Positions 33,780 through 44,717 of a DNA stretch of 64,000 nucleotides are shown here, piece after piece. The notes under the pieces were generated by a model. The model ran no database searches. It had not been told where the DNA came from and saw only the letters and a list, made by a program, of their open reading frames with translations. The stretch lies in NCBI GenBank assembly GCA_019240405.1, contig JAFAYL010000022.1, forward strand, positions 1 through 64,000, given 5' to 3'. Source of the DNA: Acidobacteriaceae bacterium (GTDB lineage: Bacteria > Acidobacteriota > Terriglobia > Bryobacterales > Bryobacteraceae). A program made the position numbers and the translations under genes. Every line of letters begins with the position of its first letter. Within the stretch, counting starts at the first letter, position 1.

Positions 33780-34445
33780 ATGGCTATCTTAAAATCAACG
33801 CTCGCGACCTTCGCGATCGCGACTCTGTTTACAGTAGCCGCTTCAGCGGCTACGCAGCCGGCGCTTTCGGGGCCGGATGTGTTTCGTATTTCTTATTGGG
33901 TCAATGAGACGTTTACCTGTACCGGCGGCAGTTGTACGCCTAGCGGTATAGCGCCCGGCATTGACGACCAAATCTACATCGTCAATCCAGGAACGAGCGG
34001 CGGGAATCTCTGCGCGAACATTTACGTGTGGGATCCTTCCGAAGAGCTCGTGTCCTGCTGCGCCACTGCGATCACGCCGAACGAACTGGTGACCACCACC
34101 GTTGGGGGGCTGCTTACGAACCCGGCAAGCGCGAGGGATAGGACGCCTCACAGCGGAGTGATCAAGATCATCTCGTCCACCGTTCCTAGCGGCGGCTGCA
34201 ATGCCGCGACCGTGGGCAAGAGTGGAGGCGGAGCAGTCACTCCAGAGTTGCTCTCCTGGATGGTGCATATCTTTACCGTCAACGGTGCTTACGAGCCGAC
34301 GGAAGAGGAATTCCTTCCTGGAACGCTGAGCGCTGCCGAGGAGGGCCTCGATGTAAATGGTTGCGCCGCTTTTGCCGGTCTCAGTGGCGCAGGCACATGC
34401 GTAGGTCCGGTGGAGGCACCAGCGGTTCGCAAGAGCCTGCGGTAG
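33780..34445 (+). CDS. Secreted eight-cysteine hypothetical protein, paralogue 1
   Basis: A 221-residue protein with a clear signal peptide (residues 1-23, cleavage after ASA). I do not recognise a family. The mature part has eight cysteines in C-x4-C (CTGGSC), NLC, SCC, GGC, GC and TC contexts, an even number suited to four disulfides. Blocks shared with paralogue 2 are ALSGPDVFR, WVNETF/FVNETF, GTSGGNLCANIYVWDPSEEL, ITPNELVTTTVGGLL and EEEFLPGTLSAAEEGLDVNG. The two are close copies, 775 bp apart start to start. An AGAGGAGG site precedes the ATG. A hairpin follows the stop. Downstream lies a DsbA-family oxidoreductase. Confidence 0.8.
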   Translation: MAILKSTLATFAIATLFTVAASAATQPALSGPDVFRISYWVNETFTCTGGSCTPSGIAPGIDDQIYIVNPGTSGGNLCANIYVWDPSEELVSCCATAITPNELVTTTVGGLLTNPASARDRTPHSGVIKIISSTVPSGGCNAATVGKSGGGAVTPELLSWMVHIFTVNGAYEPTEEEFLPGTLSAAEEGLDVNGCAAFAGLSGAGTCVGPVEAPAVRKSLR

Positions 34446-34480
34446 GGGGAGACCACCTCACAGCGGCACGGTTGTAGTAT

Positions 34481-34516
34481 CGCGGGTGAACCACGGAAAT
34501 TAATGGCTCACCCGCG
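34481..34516 (+). terminator. Hairpin after paralogue 1
   Basis: CGCGGGTGA at 34481-34489 pairs with TCACCCGCG at 34508-34516, extended by CCA/TGG inside. It lies 36 bp past the stop. No T-run follows, so termination is possible but not assured. A related hairpin follows paralogue 2. Confidence 0.5.
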
Positions 34517-34554
34517 GACTTACTGATCGTTCCGCCGGAAGGAGATCAAACGTC

Positions 34555-35235
34555 ATGTCTATCCTAAAATCAGTACTTGCGGCGTTCGCATCGGCAACGC
34601 TGTTCACCATCGCCGCTTCGGCGGCCACGCAACCAGCCCTTAGCGGGCCAGATGTATTTCGGCTCTCGTATTTCGTCAATGAGACGTTTAGCTGTACCGG
34701 GGGCAATTGTACGCCTACCGGTATAGCGCCCGGTCTGGACGACCACATCTACATTGTCAATCCAGGAACCAGCGGCGGGAATCTCTGCGCGAATATTTAC
34801 GTGTGGGATCCTTCCGAAGAGCTCGTCTCCTGCTGCGCTACCGCGATCACGCCGAACGAACTGGTGACCACCACCGTTGGGGGGCTGCTTACAAACCCAG
34901 CCAGCGCGAAAGATACGACACCTCACAGCGGGGTGATCAAGATCATCTCGTCCACCGTTCCGAGCGGCGGACACTGCAATCCCGCAACCGTGGGCAAGAG
35001 TGGAGGCGGAGCAGTCACTCCAGAGTTGCTGTCCTGGATGGTGCATCTCTTCCCCGCTGGGTTTTCGGGCTTTAGCGACGGAGAAGCGACGGAAGAGGAA
35101 TTCCTTCCTGGAACGCTGAGTGCTGCCGAGGAGGGTCTCGATGTAAATGGTTGCGCCGCCTTTGCCGGTCTCAGCGGCGCAGGGACATGCGTAGGTCCGG
35201 TAGAGGCACCAGCGGTTCGATCGCACCTTAAGTAA
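34555..35235 (+). CDS. Secreted eight-cysteine hypothetical protein, paralogue 2
   Basis: A 226-residue tandem copy of the preceding gene with the same signal peptide pattern (MSILKSVLAAFASATLFTIA) and the same eight cysteines. Long stretches match at the DNA level. The main difference is a loop: paralogue 1 has HIFTVNGAYEPTEEEF and paralogue 2 has HLFPAGFSGFSDGEATEEEF. A GGAAGGAG ribosome-binding site precedes the ATG. The copies look like a fairly recent duplication in which the scaffold is conserved and one loop varies. Function unknown. Confidence 0.8.
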   Translation: MSILKSVLAAFASATLFTIAASAATQPALSGPDVFRLSYFVNETFSCTGGNCTPTGIAPGLDDHIYIVNPGTSGGNLCANIYVWDPSEELVSCCATAITPNELVTTTVGGLLTNPASAKDTTPHSGVIKIISSTVPSGGHCNPATVGKSGGGAVTPELLSWMVHLFPAGFSGFSDGEATEEEFLPGTLSAAEEGLDVNGCAAFAGLSGAGTCVGPVEAPAVRSHLK

Positions 35236-35270
35236 GGCGCATCGCCGCGAGTACAAATCAGTACCCATTT

Positions 35271-35300
35271 ACGGGTGACCAGGAGTACCTGGCCACCCGT
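35271..35300 (+). terminator. Hairpin after paralogue 2
   Basis: ACGGGTG at 35271-35277 pairs with CACCCGT at 35294-35300, and CCAGG with CCTGG inside, leaving a 4-nt loop. No T-run follows. It resembles the hairpin after paralogue 1 in its outer arms, as expected if duplicated with the gene. Confidence 0.5.
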
Positions 35301-35370
35301 GTGGTCTATTGACTCAGGTTTCGAGATAGATATACACTCCCCAAAGAACTTCATATTAAGGATATTTACA

Positions 35371-36408
35371 TTGAACATTCGTATTTTTTGCACTCTTATC
35401 ATGCTTTCCGGCTTGACAGGCATGCTCAATGCGCAGGCCGGCCCAGCCGAGAATCCCTCAACCGTAGTAGCCGAAGTTAACGGCACTGCCGTGACCTTAG
35501 GTGAGCTGGAACAAAAGCGGGCGGACAACCTGTTTCACGCGCGCACTCAGTATTACAAGGAAGAGCGTAAAGCGCTTGACGACCTGATTGATGAGCGCTT
35601 GCTTGACATTCGGGCGCGCCGTGAGAACGTAACGGTGGACGAGCTGCTCCGACGCCACGTGGACAGCCAGGTAGCTAAGGACCCGAGCGACGAGCAGCTT
35701 CAAATACTGTATGAAGCTACCCAAACCGATCAGCCGTTTGCTTCGGTACGCGAGAGATTACTGAACAATCTGCGGCAGTTGCGCACTTCGAAGGCTCGCG
35801 CAGCATACTTGAAAACACTTCGGGACGAGGCCAAGATCAACGTCACACTTCCGGAGCCGCGCGCGGAGATCGCGCTCAACGAGCATACGCCGGTGCGCGG
35901 CCCGCGAAACGCGCCCGTCATAGTGGTTGAATTTGCCGATTATCAGTGTCCGTATTGCAAGCAGCTCGAACCGCAGATCGAGAAAATAAAAAATGAATTC
36001 GGCGACAAAGTAGCTTTGGTGTATAAGGACTACCCATTGCAGATGCACCATGACGCCGAACCCATGGCCGAGGCAGCAAGGTGCGCCGGAGAACAAGGCA
36101 AATATTGGGAATTTCACGATTATCTCTTCAACGACGTGAAGAACTTCGACATCGCACAGGCGAAAGAGCACGCCCGAGCGCTCCAATTAGACTCGGCGCG
36201 GTTTGATAAGTGCCTGGACTCGAACGCCGAAGATCAATTAATTAAGCACGATTCTGCTGAAGCGACGAACCTGGGCGTCGGTGGCACTCCGACGGTGTTC
36301 GTCAACGGGCGACTCATTGCGGGTGCAAAGTACGAGGCAATACGCGATGCAATCCAGCAGGAGTTAGCAGCAGCTTCTGCGCGCCCCCGCCAGACCGCTC
36401 GACGCTGA
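35371..36408 (+). CDS. DsbA-family thiol oxidoreductase with SurA-like N-terminal region
   Basis: Exported thioredoxin-fold protein. The start at TTG 35371 (MNIRIFCTLIMLSGLTGMLNAQ) follows an AAGGA site and gives a signal peptide; the open frame begins further upstream. Residues about 30-165 are helical and begin VVAEVNGTAVTLGELEQKR, the pattern of the SurA/PrsA N-terminal chaperone module. Residues 185-340 are DsbA-like: VVEFADYQCPYCKQLEPQI with the C-P-Y-C redox pair, and cis-Pro loop VGGTPTVFVNG. The chain joins a chaperone-like part to a disulfide oxidoreductase part. It lies beside two eight-cysteine secreted proteins that could be its clients (inference). Confidence 0.86.
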   Translation: MNIRIFCTLIMLSGLTGMLNAQAGPAENPSTVVAEVNGTAVTLGELEQKRADNLFHARTQYYKEERKALDDLIDERLLDIRARRENVTVDELLRRHVDSQVAKDPSDEQLQILYEATQTDQPFASVRERLLNNLRQLRTSKARAAYLKTLRDEAKINVTLPEPRAEIALNEHTPVRGPRNAPVIVVEFADYQCPYCKQLEPQIEKIKNEFGDKVALVYKDYPLQMHHDAEPMAEAARCAGEQGKYWEFHDYLFNDVKNFDIAQAKEHARALQLDSARFDKCLDSNAEDQLIKHDSAEATNLGVGGTPTVFVNGRLIAGAKYEAIRDAIQQELAAASARPRQTARR

Positions 36409-36409
36409 T

Positions 36410-38671
36410 TTGTCAGCAGCAAAAGAAGAATTGAGTAGGCCCGCACGCTGGCCGGTTGGCGGGCCTTCTTCCTTAGGCCGGCCGCGGCCACTTGATTTCA
36501 CGCAAATACTACGAACTTCGCAACGCTGCTGGCCACTAGGCATCGTTGTAAGCTGCGTGTTGCTTGTCCATGAATTGGCGCGCCCGACGGCATCTTTGCC
36601 CGGCTTGATCACAAGCCCGATCGATGAACGTCAACTTGTCACCCTTGCTGGAAACACGCGCCCTGAAGCCAACGTGGACACCGATCATGGCCGCGTCGCG
36701 GACGGCTTCCGAATGGAACACGTGCTGCTGCAGTTGAAGCGCTCTCCCAAGCAAGAGCTTGCCCTTCGTGCTTTCATTGACGAACTGCATAATCCGGCAT
36801 CGGCAAATTTCCATCACTGGCTAAGCGCGGATGAATTCGGAAAACAGTTCGGCCTGGCGCAGCCAGATCTCGACGTCATCGAACGCTGGTTGGTATCGCA
36901 CGGTTTTCAGATCAACGTGGTCTATTCAAACCGTCAGCTTATCGACTTCTCGGGCACGGCCGGACAGATACGCGCCGCTCTGCATACTGAAATTCACCGC
37001 CTGATGGTGAATGGCGAAGAGCATATCGCTAACATGAGCGATCCCCAAATCCCCGCTGCCTTGGCACCGGCTGTTGCAGGCCCGGTTTCACTCCATAACT
37101 TCATGCCACAACCGTTACGTGAGCCACACGCGGGTTACACCTTTGTTCTGGAGAAAGAGAAGCTTTACGGCATTGTGCCTGGGGATCTCGCCACAATTTA
37201 TAACCTCACGCCACTGTTCGAGGCTGGTGATACAGGAAAGGGCCAGACCATCGCTGTGGTGGAAGTGATGGATATTTACAATTCTTCCGACTGGAACACG
37301 TTCCGCAGTACGTTCGGGCTCGCGAGTTATACCTCGGGTTCCTTGACAACGATCCATCCGGCCCCGAAGAGCGGCAATAACAACTGTGCCGACCCGGGTT
37401 ACATTGGCTCCGACGCAGAGGCCGTTCTCGACGCCGAATGGGCCAGCGCTGCTGCCCCTGACGCGACCATCGAATTAGCTTCTTGCGCCACAACCACAAC
37501 CAGTTTCGGCGCTTTGATTGCTGTTCAGAACTTGATCAACGGCACGGCTGTATCGCCCGACATCATCAGCATCAGCTACGGGGCTTGCGAGGCGAACAGC
37601 ACAATCGCAAACTCCGCGTACAGTTCGGCCTTCCAACAGGCTGTTGCGCAGGGTGTTTCAGTTTACGTCGCCGCCGGCGATTCTGGGGCCGCTTGCAATT
37701 ATGGCAGCGTGACAGGAATCGCCGTAAACGGGATAGCTTCAACCGCATATAACGTTGCAGTTGGTGGTACGGACTTCGGAGACACTTATAGCCAGGCGAA
37801 TAGCGCTTATTGGAATTCAAACAACAGCGCGGTATACGCCTCCGCGAAGAGTTACGTCCCGGAGATTCCATGGAATGACACCTGCGCCAGTGTGCTCCTC
37901 GCCGAATCACGCGGGTACAAAACGACGTATGGTGAAAAGGGTTTCTGCAACAGTGACACTGGCGCTCGCCTCAACTGGACACACGCCGGCGGCGGCGGAC
38001 CGAGCAATTGCGCCACTTTCGATCAGAAGACATGTGGGGGTTGGCCCAAGCCCTCCTGGCAAGCCAGCGTGGGCGGTATCTCCAACGACGGGGTTCGCGA
38101 CCTCCCCGACATCTCCCTCTTTGCCGGCAAAGGCATGTGGGATCACCTCTATGTGTATTGCGATTCCGCATTTGCTCCCTGCACGGATAAGCCCGACACT
38201 TGGTCTTACGACGGCGGGACGTCATTTGGCTCGCCCATAATGGCGGGAATTCAGGCGTTAGTGAATGAAAAGGTCGGAGAACGCCAGGGCAATCCAAATT
38301 ACATGTATTACAAGCTCGCTGCCGAAGAATACGGCGCCAAAGGCAGCAAACACTGCGATTCGTCAAACGGCAGGGCGGTTGCGGAAAGTTGTACGTTCCA
38401 CGATATTACGATGGGGGATAACGACGTCGCCTGTTCCGAGAATAAAAGTACTGGCAATAATAACTGCTTCATCCCTTCGGGCGAAACGGGTGTGCTCTCA
38501 CTATCCTCCGACACATATCAGCCGGCTTTTGAAGCTGGAATAGGCTGGGATTTCGCGACGGGCATCGGAACAGTGAACGCTTACAACCTTGTGAACAACT
38601 GGGCATCTGTGATTTCGAAATCCGCGACTCTGCCCGATCGCGACCGGCGTATCAAGCTAGGATGGCACTGA
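36410..38671 (+). CDS. S53 family serine-carboxyl peptidase (sedolisin) with activation propeptide
   Basis: Secreted acid-type protease. After an N-terminal hydrophobic stretch (about residues 42-56) comes a pro-kumamolisin activation domain (about 95-225, including NPASANFHHWLSADEFGKQF). The catalytic domain carries E-A-V-L-D (SDAEAVLDAEW) as the Glu/Asp pair and GTSFGSPIMAG with the nucleophile Ser, plus SISYGACE and AAGDSGA; the calcium site is near GIGWDFATGIGTVN. The start is uncertain: TTG 36410, TTG 36431 or GTG 36557. A terminator-like hairpin lies within the first 60 bp of the longest frame, favouring a later start. The protein has many Cys and lies after the DsbA-like gene. Confidence 0.88.
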   Translation: MSAAKEELSRPARWPVGGPSSLGRPRPLDFTQILRTSQRCWPLGIVVSCVLLVHELARPTASLPGLITSPIDERQLVTLAGNTRPEANVDTDHGRVADGFRMEHVLLQLKRSPKQELALRAFIDELHNPASANFHHWLSADEFGKQFGLAQPDLDVIERWLVSHGFQINVVYSNRQLIDFSGTAGQIRAALHTEIHRLMVNGEEHIANMSDPQIPAALAPAVAGPVSLHNFMPQPLREPHAGYTFVLEKEKLYGIVPGDLATIYNLTPLFEAGDTGKGQTIAVVEVMDIYNSSDWNTFRSTFGLASYTSGSLTTIHPAPKSGNNNCADPGYIGSDAEAVLDAEWASAAAPDATIELASCATTTTSFGALIAVQNLINGTAVSPDIISISYGACEANSTIANSAYSSAFQQAVAQGVSVYVAAGDSGAACNYGSVTGIAVNGIASTAYNVAVGGTDFGDTYSQANSAYWNSNNSAVYASAKSYVPEIPWNDTCASVLLAESRGYKTTYGEKGFCNSDTGARLNWTHAGGGGPSNCATFDQKTCGGWPKPSWQASVGGISNDGVRDLPDISLFAGKGMWDHLYVYCDSAFAPCTDKPDTWSYDGGTSFGSPIMAGIQALVNEKVGERQGNPNYMYYKLAAEEYGAKGSKHCDSSNGRAVAESCTFHDITMGDNDVACSENKSTGNNNCFIPSGETGVLSLSSDTYQPAFEAGIGWDFATGIGTVNAYNLVNNWASVISKSATLPDRDRRIKLGWH
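36436..36470 (+). terminator. Rho-independent-like terminator after the DsbA-family gene
   Basis: AGGCCCGC at 36436-36443 pairs with GCGGGCCT at about 36457-36464, followed by the pyrimidine-rich run TCTTCCTT. It begins 28 bp after the oxidoreductase stop and falls inside the 5' part of the peptidase frame. Confidence 0.55.
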
Positions 38672-39747: not shown

Positions 39748-42700
39748 CTACAATCCGGTTCCCTTTAAAGGGATAATTTGCGGACTGGTTATGTCGCTAT
39801 CCGTGATGATTACTTCCGCTGTTCGATTTCCTTTGGCCTTTGGCATTAAGGTCACAGTGATCGTGCAACTCTTGGATGCGGCAAGGCTACTGCCGCATGT
39901 TTTTGAAAGGTGGTAGTCAGCCGAATGGCTCCCGCCAAGGGCTATGCTTTTGATGGTCAACGTGGTCTTTCCGACATTGGTTAACGTGATGCTCTGAGCC
40001 ATACTGCTTTTGCCTACCGTGGTGGAGGGGAAGGTCAAACTGGTCGGAGAGACTTTGGCCTGGGTGGCGGAGCCAGTCAAACTAATCAACTGCGGGCTCC
40101 CCCCTCCGTTGTCTGCGATCGAAACATCGGCTGTCCGCGTCCCTGTGGTCTTCGGTTTAAAGGTCACGCTTACAGAGCAGCTCGCATTCTTTGCGAGTAC
40201 GCTGCCGCATGTCTTCGATAGGGCAAAGTCGCCTGAATCACTGCCCGTCAAGGTAATGCTTGTAAAGGTAAGTGTGGTTGTTCCGACGTTGGTGATCGTC
40301 ACACTCTGCGGGCTCGAGCTACTTCCGATTTTCGTCGCCGGGAAGCTCAAACCTGATGCCGATAACTTAACCTGCGTCCCGGTGCCCGTCAAATTGATCG
40401 ACTGGGGACTACTGGCGGCGTTATCAGTGATTTTCACTGTTCCCGTCCGGGTGCCTTCAGCCGTGGGCTTGAATGTGACGTTGATGGTACAAGTCGCGTT
40501 TACAGCGAGGGAACTGCCGCATGTGTTGGTCTCGGAGTAGTCTCCGCTCGGCGCGATGCTGGTGATGTTCAGCGTAGCTGTCCCAGTGTTTTTGAGCGTG
40601 ACCGGCTTTGCGGCACTGGTGGTGCCCAGCAGTTGGGTGCTGAACGTGAGACTGGTTGCGCTCAGATTTACGGCCGGCGCAACGCCCGTACCGGTCAGGC
40701 TGATGGATTGCGGACTGCCTGACGCATTATCAGTGATTGCCACTGTGCCCGTGCGCGTGCCTGTAGCGGTCGGATGGAACGTGACGTTAATGGTACAGTT
40801 ACCGCCCGCTGCCACGGAGCTACCGCACGTGTTGGTTTCTGCGTAATCGCCGGTTGCGGCGATGCTGGAAATCGTCAGAGTTCCGGTGCCGGTGTTCGTA
40901 AGCGTAACGGGTTGGGCACTGCTGGTGGTGCCAACCAGTTGGCTCGCGAAGGTGAGGCTGGTCTTGGATAGGCTGACCGCAGGCGCGACGCCTGTACCGG
41001 TCAAGCTGATGGATTGCGGGCTGCCTGACGCATTGTCAGTGATTGCCACTGTGCCCGTGCGCGTGCCTGTAGCGGTCGGATGGAACGTGACGTTGATAGT
41101 ACAGTTTCCACCCGCAGAAACGGAACTACCGCACGTGTTGGTTTGTGCGTAGTCGCCCGTTGCAACGATGCTGGAAATCGTCAGAGTTCCGGTGCCGGTA
41201 TTCGTAAGCGTAACGGGTTGGGCACTGCTCGTGGTGCCAACCAGTTGGCTCGCGAAGGTGAGGCTGGTCTTGGATAGGCTGACCGCAGGCGCGACGCCTG
41301 TACCGGTCAAGCTGATGGATTGCGGGCTGCCCGAGGCATTGTCGGTGATGGTGACAGTGCCGGTGCGCGTACCCGTAGCGGTCGGGTGGAACGTGACGTT
41401 GATGGTACAGTTGCCGCCCGCAGAAACGGAACTACCGCACGTGTTGGTTTGTGCGTAGTCGCCCGTTGCAACGATGCTGGAAATCGTCAGAGTTCCGGTG
41501 CCGGTGTTAGTAAGCGTAACGGGCTGGGCACTGCTGGTTGTGCCAACCAGTTGGCTCGCGAAGGTGAGGCTGGTCTTCGATAAGCTGACCACAGGCGCTA
41601 CGCCCGTACCGGTTAGGCTGGTGGATTGCGGGCTGCCCGAGGCGTTGTCGGTGATCGTGACAGTGCCGGTGCGCGTGCCCGTAGCGGTCGGATGGAACGT
41701 GACGCTGATCGTACAATTTCCGCCCGCTGCCACCGAGCTACCGCAGGTATTGGTTTGTGCGTAGTCGCCCGTAGCAACAATACTGGAGATTGTCAGAGTT
41801 GCGCTGCCGCTGTTCGTAAGTGTGACGGGCTGAGCACTGCTGGTTGTGCCAACCAGTTGGCTCGCGAAGGTGAGGCTGGTCTTGGATAGGCTGACCGCCG
41901 GCGCGACGCCGGTTCCCGTCAGGCTGATGGATTGCGGGCTGCCGGAAGCATTGTCGGTGATGGTGACAGTGCCGGTGCGCGTGCCCGTGGTTGTGGGTTT
42001 AAACGTAACGTTGATAGTGCAGTTTCCACCAGCAGAGACGGAACTACCGCAGGTGTTGCTCTGGGAGTAATCGCCCGTAGCAACAATGCTGGAGATTGTC
42101 AGAGTTGCGCTGCCGCTGTTCGTAAGGGTGACAGGCTGGGCACTGCTGGTTGTGCCAACCGGTTGGCTCGCAAAGGTGAGGCTGGTCGTCGATAGGCTGA
42201 CCGCAGGCGCGACGCCTGTACCCGTCAGGCTGATGGATTGCGGGCTGCCCGAAGCATTATCGGTGATCGTGACTGTACCGGTGCGCGTGCCTGTAGTGGT
42301 CGGATGGAACGTGACGTTGATTGTGCAATTGCCGCCCGCTGCAACAGAACTACCGCACGTGTTGGATTGCGCGTAGTCGCCGGTGGCGGCGATGTTCGAG
42401 ATGGTAAGAGTTCCGGTGCCGTTGTTCGTGAGGGTAACGGGCTGGACACTGCTGGTTGTGCCAACCAGTTGGCTCGCAAAGGTGAGACTGGTCGTCGATA
42501 AGCTAACAGCCGCCGCCACCCCTGTTCCCGTCAGGCTGACGGTCTGCGGACTCCCCGACGCATTGTCGGTGATTGTTACTGCGCCTGTGCGAGTGCCTGT
42601 AGTCGTGGGACTGAATGTGACGTTGATCGTGCAACTACCAGTGGGCGCAATCGAGCCGCTGCAGGTATTCGTTTGCGCGAAGTCGCCGGTGACAGCGATG

Positions 42701-43470
42701 TTGGAGATGGTAAGCGCCGCGCTCCCACTATTGGTAACGGTCACCGGTTGCGCGCTGCTTGTGCTGCCAACCTGCTGGCCAGGGAAGGTAAGACTCGTGG
42801 TCGACAAGCTCACGGCAGCAGCAGCAGCATTCAAGCCCACCGCATCTAACGCAAAATCGCTGCAGGTTCCGGGGCACTGCGAAAGAGTAAACACAACGGA
42901 GGTGATGTTCGCGCCAGACTGATCGAGCAATCCGATATAGACTGCGTCACCATTCGTGTCACTTGGCACCGTGAAGACGCCAAGCGAAGTAGCTCCGTTA
43001 AAGGCCTGGACTTGCGCAGTGAATTGACCCGGCGTGTCAGTCTGAATCAAGGCACCGGCGCCGGCAACAGGATTCGTGAAAGTCAGCGCGACCGGCCCAT
43101 TACCTCCGTTCGCAGCATCCGACGTCCAAAGCAAAGCGTCCTGCGCTGGAAATCCCGAGCCGGTCCAACTGCAAGGCGAACCTCCGCAGACAACCGAAAC
43201 AATGCTATTAGGACCGGCGAGACTCACGCTCACCGAATTGCCCTTGGTTGAGGTGACATTGAAACTGGCCTGAACGACGGTCCCGTCGGCGCCCAGTTGG
43301 GACCAATTTACGAAATCCGTGGCATTTTGCGCACTCTGACTGGTAACCAGAGTGAGCGAATCGGCCGAAGCAGAAGCGGCCCCGAAGAGCATCGCGACCA
43401 AACATAGTGCCGCGAAACGAGAAGTTGTGCGTGCGCTCATTTGCTTTTCAATCCAAGATGTGTGCAGCAT
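39748..43470 (-). CDS. Giant secreted ten-repeat ASH (choice-of-anchor D) protein
   Basis: A 1240-residue exported protein. A signal peptide (residues about 11-35, LCLVAMLFGAASASA) is followed by a 220-residue N-terminal domain (SLTLVTSQSAQNATDFVNW onward) and then ten ASH/HYDIN-like immunoglobulin-type repeats of about 102 residues. Each reads S-L-T-F-x-x-Q-x-V-G-T-T-S-S-A-Q-P-V-T-L-T-N, a T-C-G-S-S core, and T-G-T-R-T-G-T-V-x-I-T-D-N. Repeats 2-7 are near-identical, while 8-10 diverge. The DNA period is 306 bp. I chose ATG 43470 because GGAG lies just upstream and the longer frame would run into the neighbouring gene. Likely an extracellular surface scaffold; partner unknown. Confidence 0.85.
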   Translation of the reverse strand: MLHTSWIEKQMSARTTSRFAALCLVAMLFGAASASADSLTLVTSQSAQNATDFVNWSQLGADGTVVQASFNVTSTKGNSVSVSLAGPNSIVSVVCGGSPCSWTGSGFPAQDALLWTSDAANGGNGPVALTFTNPVAGAGALIQTDTPGQFTAQVQAFNGATSLGVFTVPSDTNGDAVYIGLLDQSGANITSVVFTLSQCPGTCSDFALDAVGLNAAAAAVSLSTTSLTFPGQQVGSTSSAQPVTVTNSGSAALTISNIAVTGDFAQTNTCSGSIAPTGSCTINVTFSPTTTGTRTGAVTITDNASGSPQTVSLTGTGVAAAVSLSTTSLTFASQLVGTTSSVQPVTLTNNGTGTLTISNIAATGDYAQSNTCGSSVAAGGNCTINVTFHPTTTGTRTGTVTITDNASGSPQSISLTGTGVAPAVSLSTTSLTFASQPVGTTSSAQPVTLTNSGSATLTISSIVATGDYSQSNTCGSSVSAGGNCTINVTFKPTTTGTRTGTVTITDNASGSPQSISLTGTGVAPAVSLSKTSLTFASQLVGTTSSAQPVTLTNSGSATLTISSIVATGDYAQTNTCGSSVAAGGNCTISVTFHPTATGTRTGTVTITDNASGSPQSTSLTGTGVAPVVSLSKTSLTFASQLVGTTSSAQPVTLTNTGTGTLTISSIVATGDYAQTNTCGSSVSAGGNCTINVTFHPTATGTRTGTVTITDNASGSPQSISLTGTGVAPAVSLSKTSLTFASQLVGTTSSAQPVTLTNTGTGTLTISSIVATGDYAQTNTCGSSVSAGGNCTINVTFHPTATGTRTGTVAITDNASGSPQSISLTGTGVAPAVSLSKTSLTFASQLVGTTSSAQPVTLTNTGTGTLTISSIAATGDYAETNTCGSSVAAGGNCTINVTFHPTATGTRTGTVAITDNASGSPQSISLTGTGVAPAVNLSATSLTFSTQLLGTTSAAKPVTLKNTGTATLNITSIAPSGDYSETNTCGSSLAVNATCTINVTFKPTAEGTRTGTVKITDNAASSPQSINLTGTGTQVKLSASGLSFPATKIGSSSSPQSVTITNVGTTTLTFTSITLTGSDSGDFALSKTCGSVLAKNASCSVSVTFKPKTTGTRTADVSIADNGGGSPQLISLTGSATQAKVSPTSLTFPSTTVGKSSMAQSITLTNVGKTTLTIKSIALGGSHSADYHLSKTCGSSLAASKSCTITVTLMPKAKGNRTAEVIITDSDITSPQIIPLKGTGL
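39760..42820. repeat. Tandem 306-bp coding repeats
   Basis: Ten consecutive copies within the ASH gene, about 3.06 kb in all. Copies 2-7 (about 40.6-42.5 kb) match so closely that the opposite strand shows the same open frames every 306 bp. The outermost copies are the most diverged, a pattern expected from unequal exchange or gene conversion in the middle of the array. Confidence 0.85.
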
Positions 43471-43490
43471 GTCTATCTCCTCGATCTCCT

Positions 43491-44717
43491 CTACGGGGTA
43501 CATGCGGCGCCTGCATCGCTGGTGAACGAGCCGCCGTCGGAATACATGCCGCCTGCAGCGATCGAAGGATCCTGATCGTAAAACCACGAGAAGAAGGCCA
43601 GCTCCTGCAGGTTGTAGCTGAAGCCGTTAGGCATAGTCACAGGAGGAGAGAGAGGGGGGCTGCCGAAGAAGGCATCACCCACTTCGTAGTTGTTATCGCA
43701 ACTCCCATCAGCGGGGTTTGTCCACCCTGGAGTGGGGTTGCCGGTATCCGGATCATTCATCCATTCGGCAACTTCGTGGCTTAGGACATAAACATCCGAT
43801 ACGTACAGATCCTGCCACTCTCCACTGGTATCGAAATCAGCCACGACATAGGTCTGCAGCGAATTGGAAGAATCGTAGTAGGCGCCATGATCGCCAAACG
43901 CCGTTGAGCCGTTGTAATTCATCACCACGCTGTCGAAGATAAAAATCGGGACGCTACCCGGGCCAACGCCGGTTCCCTGGCTCTCTAATGCAGGGATAAG
44001 CGTAGTGGTGACATAGTTGTCCCACCAGAAGTAATCAATCTCGCCAGACTGGCATGAGCCTCCGATAATGTAGCCATCAGCAGCCGGGACTTGAACAACC
44101 TGGCCTAAAACATTGTTGAGGTTCAAGATGGTGTGATAGGGCGTGATCAAGTTCGAGTTTGGAGAGACATATTGCCAAAAATTGGCGCGCTGGAACGCGT
44201 CCGCGTACTGCGTGGTGCCCACATCTACGGGATTGTTGCCATTGGCGTCAGTAAACGTGAAGTCGGTGGTCTGAAACATTGGCGACTTTTGGACCAGATC
44301 GACAACAGTGTCGCCGGCACAAGGATCGAACGCGGTGGGGTCCTGAACGGAGCCATCCGAGAAATTGAAGATCACGGGAACGAGATAAGCCTGGATTGTG
44401 GTTGTTCTCTTGCCGTTATTGAAGGGGCTCCGGCCCACGATAGTGCCCGAATAATTGTTATTGTCTTGGCCTGCTACGACGTTGTAGGTCCAGAGGGGGA
44501 GCGAGGGAGAACTCGGTCCATTTGGGCTGTTCAACCCCGCATTGGGTCTTGGCGAATTGGGTCTTGGGATTGCTTTGTGGTGAATCGGGTCGGCTCGCTT
44601 GACCTTCTTGGATGGTTGCAGGCGGCTTTTTTGTTGTCCGAAAGCTGCTTGTGAATTAGTAAAAAAGAATACGATTGCGATCGCGAATATGAATAAGAGG
44701 GTGCGATGAATTTTCAA
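43491..44717 (-). CDS. Secreted hypothetical protein with an HEVAEW metal-site-like motif
   Basis: Exported protein of about 408 residues. The start TTG 44717 follows AGGAAAGGAG at ideal spacing and opens a signal peptide (IHRTLLFIFAIAIVFFFTNS); an ATG 56 codons further upstream has no such support. Near residue 318 it has LSHEVAEWMNDP, then PGWTNPADGSCDNNYEVGDAF. The layout S-H-E-x-A-E-x-x-x-D-P ... G-W ... E-x-G-D resembles secreted proteins of the phosphate-induced/EXORDIUM kind and some zinc-peptidase-like families, but activity is not shown. It is followed 21 nt later by the ASH protein and is probably cotranscribed with it. Confidence 0.72.
   Translation of the reverse strand: MKIHRTLLFIFAIAIVFFFTNSQAAFGQQKSRLQPSKKVKRADPIHHKAIPRPNSPRPNAGLNSPNGPSSPSLPLWTYNVVAGQDNNNYSGTIVGRSPFNNGKRTTTIQAYLVPVIFNFSDGSVQDPTAFDPCAGDTVVDLVQKSPMFQTTDFTFTDANGNNPVDVGTTQYADAFQRANFWQYVSPNSNLITPYHTILNLNNVLGQVVQVPAADGYIIGGSCQSGEIDYFWWDNYVTTTLIPALESQGTGVGPGSVPIFIFDSVVMNYNGSTAFGDHGAYYDSSNSLQTYVVADFDTSGEWQDLYVSDVYVLSHEVAEWMNDPDTGNPTPGWTNPADGSCDNNYEVGDAFFGSPPLSPPVTMPNGFSYNLQELAFFSWFYDQDPSIAAGGMYSDGGSFTSDAGAACTP

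Follow-up and report, generated by a model that had tools for sequence, protein, structure and literature searches.

A SurA_N-like/DsbA fusion as a probable dedicated foldase of an eight-cysteine exported domain in Acidobacteria

An exported protein that joins a SurA_N-like module to a DsbA domain is, on the evidence of gene order and distribution, quite probably a periplasmic foldase dedicated to an eight-cysteine (8-Cys) domain. Genes for both partners lie together in the window, i.e., the whole 64,000-nucleotide stretch of DNA that was analysed. The original prediction, made on this stretch, proposed a dedicated folding machine and called for a check of co-occurrence and adjacency in relatives. 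That check supports the main idea: both partners are present in 18 of the 237 genomes of the bacterial family and the fusion alone in none, and 27 of the 29 testable fusion orthologues adjoin a stand-alone 8-Cys gene.

Results

Gene arrangement in the window

Four genes are aligned on the forward strand in the order paralogue 1, paralogue 2, SurA_N-like/DsbA fusion and S53 pro-peptidase (Table 1). As predicted, the first two are near-copies of an exported protein: reading of both open reading frames (ORFs) gave an identity of 88–89%, a signal-peptide-like start in each (...AASA/ATQ, by eye), and eight cysteines, all in the mature part (47, 52, 78, 93, 94, 140, 195 and 207 in paralogue 1; 47, 52, 78, 93, 94, 141, 200 and 212 in paralogue 2). 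The ORF order and the Pfam matches also confirm that they precede a SurA-like/DsbA protein with a C-P-Y-C site. Both are rightly called unrecognised, as neither matched Pfam or NCBIfam at E ≤ 1; nor did PADLOC (E ≤ 0.01) match them, leaving a defence system reading unsupported. The two paralogues are the only 8-Cys domain matches in the window genome.

Table 1. Positions of the cassette genes, their parts and the neighbouring peptidase gene in the window
Feature	Position	Strand	Remarks
8-Cys paralogue 1	33780..34445	+	221 aa; signal peptide about 33780-33848, mature 33849-34442
Private CTGGSC pair, paralogue 1	33918..33935	+	sits in ~15 aa insertion
Variable loop, paralogue 1	34269..34298	+	
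8-Cys paralogue 2	34555..35235	+	226 aa; signal peptide about 34555-34623, mature 34624-35232
Private CTGGNC pair, paralogue 2	34693..34710	+	
Variable loop, paralogue 2	35047..35088	+	
Exported SurA_N-like/DsbA fusion	35371..36408	+	ORF open from GTG 35275
SurA_N_3-like stretch	35392..35673	+	26.5 bits vs cut-off 27.2
DsbA / Thioredoxin_4 domain	35878..36357	+	Pfam match
C-P-Y-C active site	35947..35958	+	
S53 (sedolisin-type) pro-peptidase	36410..38671	+	exact start unsure; cassette neighbour in this genus only

The statement that the copies differ mainly in one loop was an overstatement, since the loop accounts for 12 of the 31 differing alignment columns; the loop region is of variable length across the 28 aligned family members. 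The loop had also been thought to be under different selection. For the pair as a whole dN/dS is 0.20, and in codons 151–180, which contain the loop, it is about 0.41; neither value gives a sign of positive selection, and that reading of the loop was rejected. Between the paralogues, dS amounts to 1.1 over the 23 codons of the signal peptide and to 0.35 over the mature part, a difference suggestive of gene conversion in the core. Among other tandem copies, some are close (98% identity in L080, 99% in L159) and others far apart (43% in L041, 50% in L160).

Adjacency in relatives

We collected 30 distinct fusion orthologue genes, namely, 21 in the bacterial family, 8 outside it and 1 of genome G283; 29 were testable, the G046 copy being left out because it lies at a contig edge. 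In the 27 linked cases the stand-alone 8-Cys gene is located immediately upstream of the fusion on the same strand. Two of these links (L036 and L158) were counted by hand from match coordinates, as the longest DsbA ORF overran the 8-Cys gene; the copy in L158 is intact and stops where the gene ends. The exceptions are two. In G094 the fusion is unlinked, and a SurA_N-like stretch without the DsbA half lies beside a tandem 8-Cys pair (L041). In G283, which carries the fusion without a detected domain, a 12-Cys exported-looking gene is found two genes upstream. Tandem 8-Cys copies beside the fusion recur, being seen in the window, L035, L059, L080, L121, L159 and L160. L035, from the same genus, carries the S53 gene, two 8-Cys genes and the SurA_N-DsbA fusion together, so the arrangement in the window is more than chance.

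The distances of the two partners agree with each other: the Mantel r was 0.625 for 27 pairs and 0.885 for 9 pairs within the genus, and none of 20000 permutations reached these values in either test. Both values come from a second run of the Mantel test, which, like the tree, was made without L114 and L115 (repeats of L080 and L046); a first run had included them. In genome G332, which has two divergent cassettes, the nearest relative of each cassette is the same by both proteins; for the window's own pair, the nearest relatives differ between the domain and the fusion.

Co-occurrence of the domain and the fusion

The fusion orthologues are set apart by a clear gap in scores. With profile A3, 18 of 237 genomes had matches of at least 446 bits, against 302 for the next match down; in the class sample the orthologues reached at least 427 bits, against 336. 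The gap was not made by the profile, because the single-sequence search with P0003 shows it as well (E ≤ 1.4e-85 in 12 of 150 genomes, against 3.3e-62 for the next match).

All 18 fusion-bearing genomes of the bacterial family are contained within the 21 domain-bearing ones, three genomes having the domain only and 216 neither (Fisher test, 3e-24, uncorrected for descent). The class sample (n = 399; 9 of its domain-bearing genomes are also in the family set) contains 13 genomes with both, 2 with the domain only, 1 with the fusion only (G283) and 383 with neither. Four more domain-bearing genomes were reached through the loci; the fusion is present in two of them (L034 and L066) and was not found in the other two, which are metagenome-assembled genomes (MAGs) filed under Myxococcota (L033 and L052). 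Since 3 of the 21 family genomes (G013, G028, which is 99% complete, and G045) have the domain without the fusion, the fusion is not strictly required for the domain.

Could all this reflect vertical inheritance alone, with the adjacency descending from one ancestral cassette without functional coupling? All linked fusions do fall in one clade (SH-aLRT 99; 27 linked of 30 rows), and the tests above are not corrected for phylogeny. Nevertheless, in one genus (g1, n = 17) presence and absence are patchy and joint, 7 genomes having both partners, 10 neither and none one alone; the pairing is kept at about 30% domain identity; and the two divergent cassettes of G332 coexist in one genome. We therefore consider descent without coupling highly unlikely and retain the reading of a dedicated foldase.

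Distribution and architecture of the 8-Cys domain

A single-sequence search found relatives of the paralogues in 15 of 150 genomes of the bacterial family, with at most 14 matches per genome, and a profile search (E ≤ 1e-10) found the domain in 21 of 237, with up to 13 copies per genome. When genome contigs were scanned, one sequence as the query found nothing, and the profile then gave 69 loci, of which 67 belong to Acidobacteriota and 2 are the Myxococcota MAGs. In the loci read there are 110 distinct domain copies, some being fragments at contig ends.

The position of the domain within its protein was examined for loci L033–L135 and the window, using the 102 domains with complete C-terminal coverage and a stop. 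The domain ends within 5 residues of the stop in 91 of them and within 30 residues in 100; the two exceptions occur in L067 and L033. By the open frame, the residues preceding the domain number 75 or fewer (stand-alone) in 54 cases, 76–200 in 11 and more than 200 in 37. Ten longer or typical members were scanned, and their N-terminal partners include DUF11, DUF7933, ice-binding-like and DUF4394 modules. The stop-proximal position, the N-terminal partners and the stand-alone copies together indicate, at the level of sequence, that exported proteins carry the 8-Cys domain as a C-terminal module and that it also exists alone. The domain is thus repeated on many exported proteins of Acidobacteria, yet no Pfam or NCBIfam model matched it. 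Among the matches listed in the open-licence literature, the titles and the starts of the abstracts revealed no paper on the 8-Cys domain, and likewise none on a SurA-DsbA fusion.

Cysteine pattern and predicted disulfides

The canonical cysteines are C1 (in CxN), C2, C3 and C4 (in CCxC, as C2-C3-x-C4), C5, C6, C7 and C8, and all eight are present in 86 of the 110 distinct copies. Three lineages with losses are noteworthy. One is that of L066 (two copies) and L135, where C1 and C5 are both missing. Another is that of L121, L123 and L124 (eight copies), where one of the vicinal pair is missing, C3 by alignment, and where the copies with a complete end also lack one of C7/C8. The last is the window pair, which lacks C4 and C8 and is brought back to eight by the private CTGGxC, which lies in an insertion not present in the 26 other rows of the family alignment (28 members). 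The eight cysteines of the window pair are therefore not the family's eight.

These paired losses suggest the disulfides C1-C5, C4-C8 and C3-C7, and C2-C6 by elimination, so that all canonical bonds would be non-consecutive. For the window pair, the same reasoning suggests 47-52, 78-140/141, 93-195/200 and 94-207/212. The co-loss evidence comes from three lineages, and in clade C (that of L121) the missing cysteines may be either of C2/C3 and either of C7/C8; C2 and C3 may thus have to change places in this map. Contrary rows also exist: C1 alone is missing in L079 and C5 alone in L053. In the upstream copy of L039, C7 and C8 are missing and the end is degenerate. In the rows scored as lacking C5 (L126, L068, L041, L082 and L120), a cysteine lies a few residues away (by eye).

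The pattern also bears on another idea, in which the 8-Cys proteins have metal or redox activity and the fusion, instead of folding them, is an ScsC-like partner that sets their thiol state in redox sensing or metal resistance. The vicinal CC motif of the domain would suit such a role, and so would the PDB relatives of the DsbA half, which include 4gxz (suppression of copper sensitivity), 6nen (copper resistance) and 6mhh (metal resistance). However, in three lineages the cysteine losses are paired and leave an even total, as expected of disulfides, the C-terminal position on diverse proteins fits a structural role, and inspection of the neighbours by eye brought up no metal gene. A metal or redox function is accordingly very unlikely in our view. 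Other DsbA-like chains are also among the PDB matches of the DsbA half.

The SurA_N-like/DsbA fusion

The fusion likely starts at TTG 35371, which has AAGGA before it, and it is exported, a signal peptide being seen in the sequence. It matches Thioredoxin_4 (2.8e-30) and DSBA (3e-21), and these DSBA/Thioredoxin_4 matches are above the Pfam cut-offs (106.1 and 76.5 bits versus 23.2 and 25.6). SurA_N_3 reached 26.5–27.0 bits, just under its cut-off of 27.2. At E ≤ 1e-3, both DSBA and Thioredoxin_4 were matched by 15 of 15 orthologues, and SurA_N_3 by 11 of 15. No parvulin (rotamase) family was among the Pfam matches of the window fusion at E ≤ 1.

The active site is CPYC in most orthologues, CPAC in both of L046 and CPFC in L036. 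A GTP motif is invariant in 15 of 15 orthologues; we take its proline to be the DsbA cis-proline, preceded by Thr. CPYC with Thr before the cis-proline is typical of DsbG/ScsC-like isomerases, and E. coli proteins with non-consecutive disulfides often depend on the isomerase DsbC. Because of these motifs and the predicted non-consecutive bonds, the fusion is more likely an isomerase or a mixed foldase than a pure oxidase. Neither DsbB nor VKOR was found in the window genome (95.79% complete), to which the DsbB search was confined; VKOR was found in 9 of the 23 domain-bearing genomes tested and in 3 of 6 others.

The S53 peptidase and the wider gene context

The S53 neighbour was described as having many cysteines, and 16 were counted in its ORF, 14 of them after residue 300. 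Its Pro-kumamolisin activation domain scored 86.1 bits against a cut-off of 23.5. As a neighbour of the folding cassette it was seen within the genus, beside 5 of the 9 cassettes known there (contig ends truncate several of the nine). Among the 69 loci of the profile scan only L035 has it, and among L102–L135 it occurs in L116, L122 and L123, all of the same genus. Over these two sets of loci, the S53 peptidase as a core cassette part finds no support beyond the genus.

Downstream of the cassette in eight loci (L037, L039, L046, L050, L055, L058, L059 and L080) is a giant PKD-type protein almost devoid of Cys, identified as such by Pfam for L055, and in most of them a PEP-CTERM-like protein (by eye) lies in between. 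One reading of this arrangement is that the fusion serves as an additional foldase of general scope for a surface structure with the giant and PEP-CTERM-like proteins, adjoining the 8-Cys gene only through a shared timing of need. Yet the giant protein itself offers hardly any cysteines, it was not found beside the cassettes of the window or L035, where the 8-Cys/fusion pair persists, and some other fusion clades adjoin unrelated Cys-rich proteins. We judge a shared operon of this kind unlikely and keep to the dedicated foldase. LuxR-type genes were seen near several cassettes. In the window no match to these context proteins was found.

Wider fusions and a second candidate client family

Beyond the orthologues, we examined a hand-chosen set of loci with more distant, full-length (tier-2) fusions. 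Of 41 tier-2 fusions, 10 have a Cys-rich gene as their immediate upstream neighbour on the same strand; for background exported-like genes the figure is 9 of 275 (p 2e-5). Under the criterion applied, the remaining 31 fusions have none. In these statistics genes are the longest ORFs, and a crude rule for export, based on a hydrophobic stretch, was applied to the background and not required of the neighbours. One separate fusion clade has a second candidate client family, with 8 homologues of 243–306 aa and 9–13 Cys; in 5 cases the gene is the first upstream of the fusion and in 3 the second. In the eight f2-family loci read (L141, L149, L151, L153, L154, L155, L166 and L167), no Cys-rich neighbour was found directly upstream.

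More tentatively, then, the idea of a paired foldase and client may extend to a class. In its broadest form, which we offer as a real possibility while leaning slightly against it, SurA_N-DsbA fusions would be a client-encoded foldase class in Terriglobia, with several clades each having its own unrelated Cys-rich exported family; the 8-Cys domain would be a new C-terminal surface module, for anchoring, sorting or glycan binding, and its i/i+4 disulfides, none of them consecutive, would depend on a foldase of this class.

Fold of the 8-Cys domain

AF2 models were made for window paralogue 2 (pLDDT 80.5, pTM 0.80) and for a canonical member, L050 (pLDDT 90.1, pTM 0.87); both were built from the same sequences and are not independent. 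The best fold match of both is TM1070 (1nc7; E 5.4e-4 and 4.1e-4), and it is a modest one, with a target TM of 0.66–0.67 and a query TM of 0.41–0.42. ASRT chains are among the next best matches, as are FlgD chains with lower scores. On the sequence side, the ASRT family was not among the 15 families listed in a Pfam scan of 85 domain members (E ≤ 5), and the domain profile had 0 hits to PDB sequences at E ≤ 10. No viral fold in BFVD matched at E ≤ 0.001. The models thus hint weakly at an oxidised domain with a beta-sandwich like the ASRT fold. Sugar binding was proposed for ASRAH (ASRT superfamily) domains (PMC2739507). Since the fold match is modest and lacks sequence support, binding of a surface glycan by the 8-Cys domain is a lead only.

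Discussion

In the mechanism that we propose, the paralogues and the fusion are exported, as their signal peptides show, the unfolded 8-Cys domain would be held by the SurA_N-like module, and the CPYC DsbA module would form and reshuffle its disulfides. A helper would be needed because these disulfides, to go by the paired losses, are non-consecutive. The oxidised domain may then act beyond the cytoplasm, either by itself or at the C-terminus of surface proteins, where it might perhaps bind a surface glycan.

To our knowledge, few natural DsbA-type enzyme-client pairs are known, and the client choice of these enzymes is hard to study for this reason. The present data provide a resource of 27 matched pairs, one further candidate client family, single-disulfide losses that arose in nature and a plain bond prediction, with which specificity, the chaperone fusion and the disulfide order become testable by partner swapping.

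The idea of a dedicated DsbA is already known from DsbL and ASST; the client domain and the SurA_N-like fusion variant are new here. DsbL is described as a DsbA-like oxidoreductase whose gene adjoins that of a single exported client, ASST, for which it is specific (PMC3526765). The cassette resembles the DsbL/DsbI-ASST system in that the oxidoreductase gene adjoins the presumed client gene in 27 of 29 testable loci. It differs in three respects: a SurA_N-like module is fused on, a DsbB-like partner of its own was not found (no DsbB or VKOR in the window genome), and the client would be a multi-copy domain family with 3–4 predicted disulfides, plus a private one in the window. ScsC is reported to be trimeric and tied to copper (PMC8900818, PMC5524982). 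Like ScsC and other trimeric DsbA-like isomerases, the fusion has a DsbA domain with an extra N-terminal module and a PDB relative in 4gxz; unlike ScsC, its N-terminal part resembles SurA_N. With SurA-type chaperones it shares export and, to go by a match just under the cut-off in the window, probably a SurA_N-like N-terminal module, and it carries a DsbA domain instead of a parvulin (rotamase) domain, for which there was no match at E ≤ 1. Finally, the 8-Cys domain may be like the ASRT (ASRAH) superfamily in fold, given its modest matches to TM1070 (1nc7) and then ASRT chains, and it departs from that superfamily in lacking a sequence match and in being disulfide-rich, with a C-terminal helical part.

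Features of the cassette

The inverted repeats behind the two paralogues, one after each, resemble each other and may hold expression of these putative clients above that of the SurA_N-like/DsbA fusion.

Positions of features in the window and at a related locus
Feature	Position	Strand	Remark
Imperfect inverted repeat, CGGGTGA...CACCCG	window 34483-34514		3′ of paralogue 1
Imperfect inverted repeat, CGGGTGA...CACCCG	window 35272-35299		3′ of paralogue 2
1279-aa ORF, many near-identical Ig-like repeats	window 39748-43587	-	by eye
Tandem array of four genes, 8-Cys domain at end of each	L049:1073-7044

Redox partners and related arrays

Neither DsbB nor VKOR was found in a search of the window's own genome, despite the further DsbA-like proteins encoded there; among its relatives, the VKOR distribution is patchy.

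The 8-Cys domains of the L049 array are 75–95% identical. Tandem 8-Cys genes also occur in two MAGs labelled Deltaproteobacteria (Myxococcota; L033 and L052), from which the fusion orthologue is absent, and transfer or mis-binning may account for them. A second Cys-rich, exported-looking family (243–306 aa, 9–13 Cys) lies upstream of another SurA_N-DsbA clade (L131, L139, L143, L148, L150, L152, L164, and L165); a Pfam scan of two members gave no match above its cut-off.

Surroundings of the cassette

In eight related loci (L037, L039, L046, L050, L055, L058, L059, and L080), the cassette lies in an extended operon with a giant PKD/Ig-type protein, in most also with PEP-CTERM-like proteins of ~200 aa each, and in several with LuxR-type regulators nearby. 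The giant protein measures 2300–2800 aa in the copies complete enough to size, while others are truncated where the contig or the stretch stops. In the window, each Ig-like repeat of the 1279-aa ORF was seen by eye to carry a cysteine pair of the TC...GGxC type; its product is perhaps another disulfide-rich exported protein adjoining the cassette.
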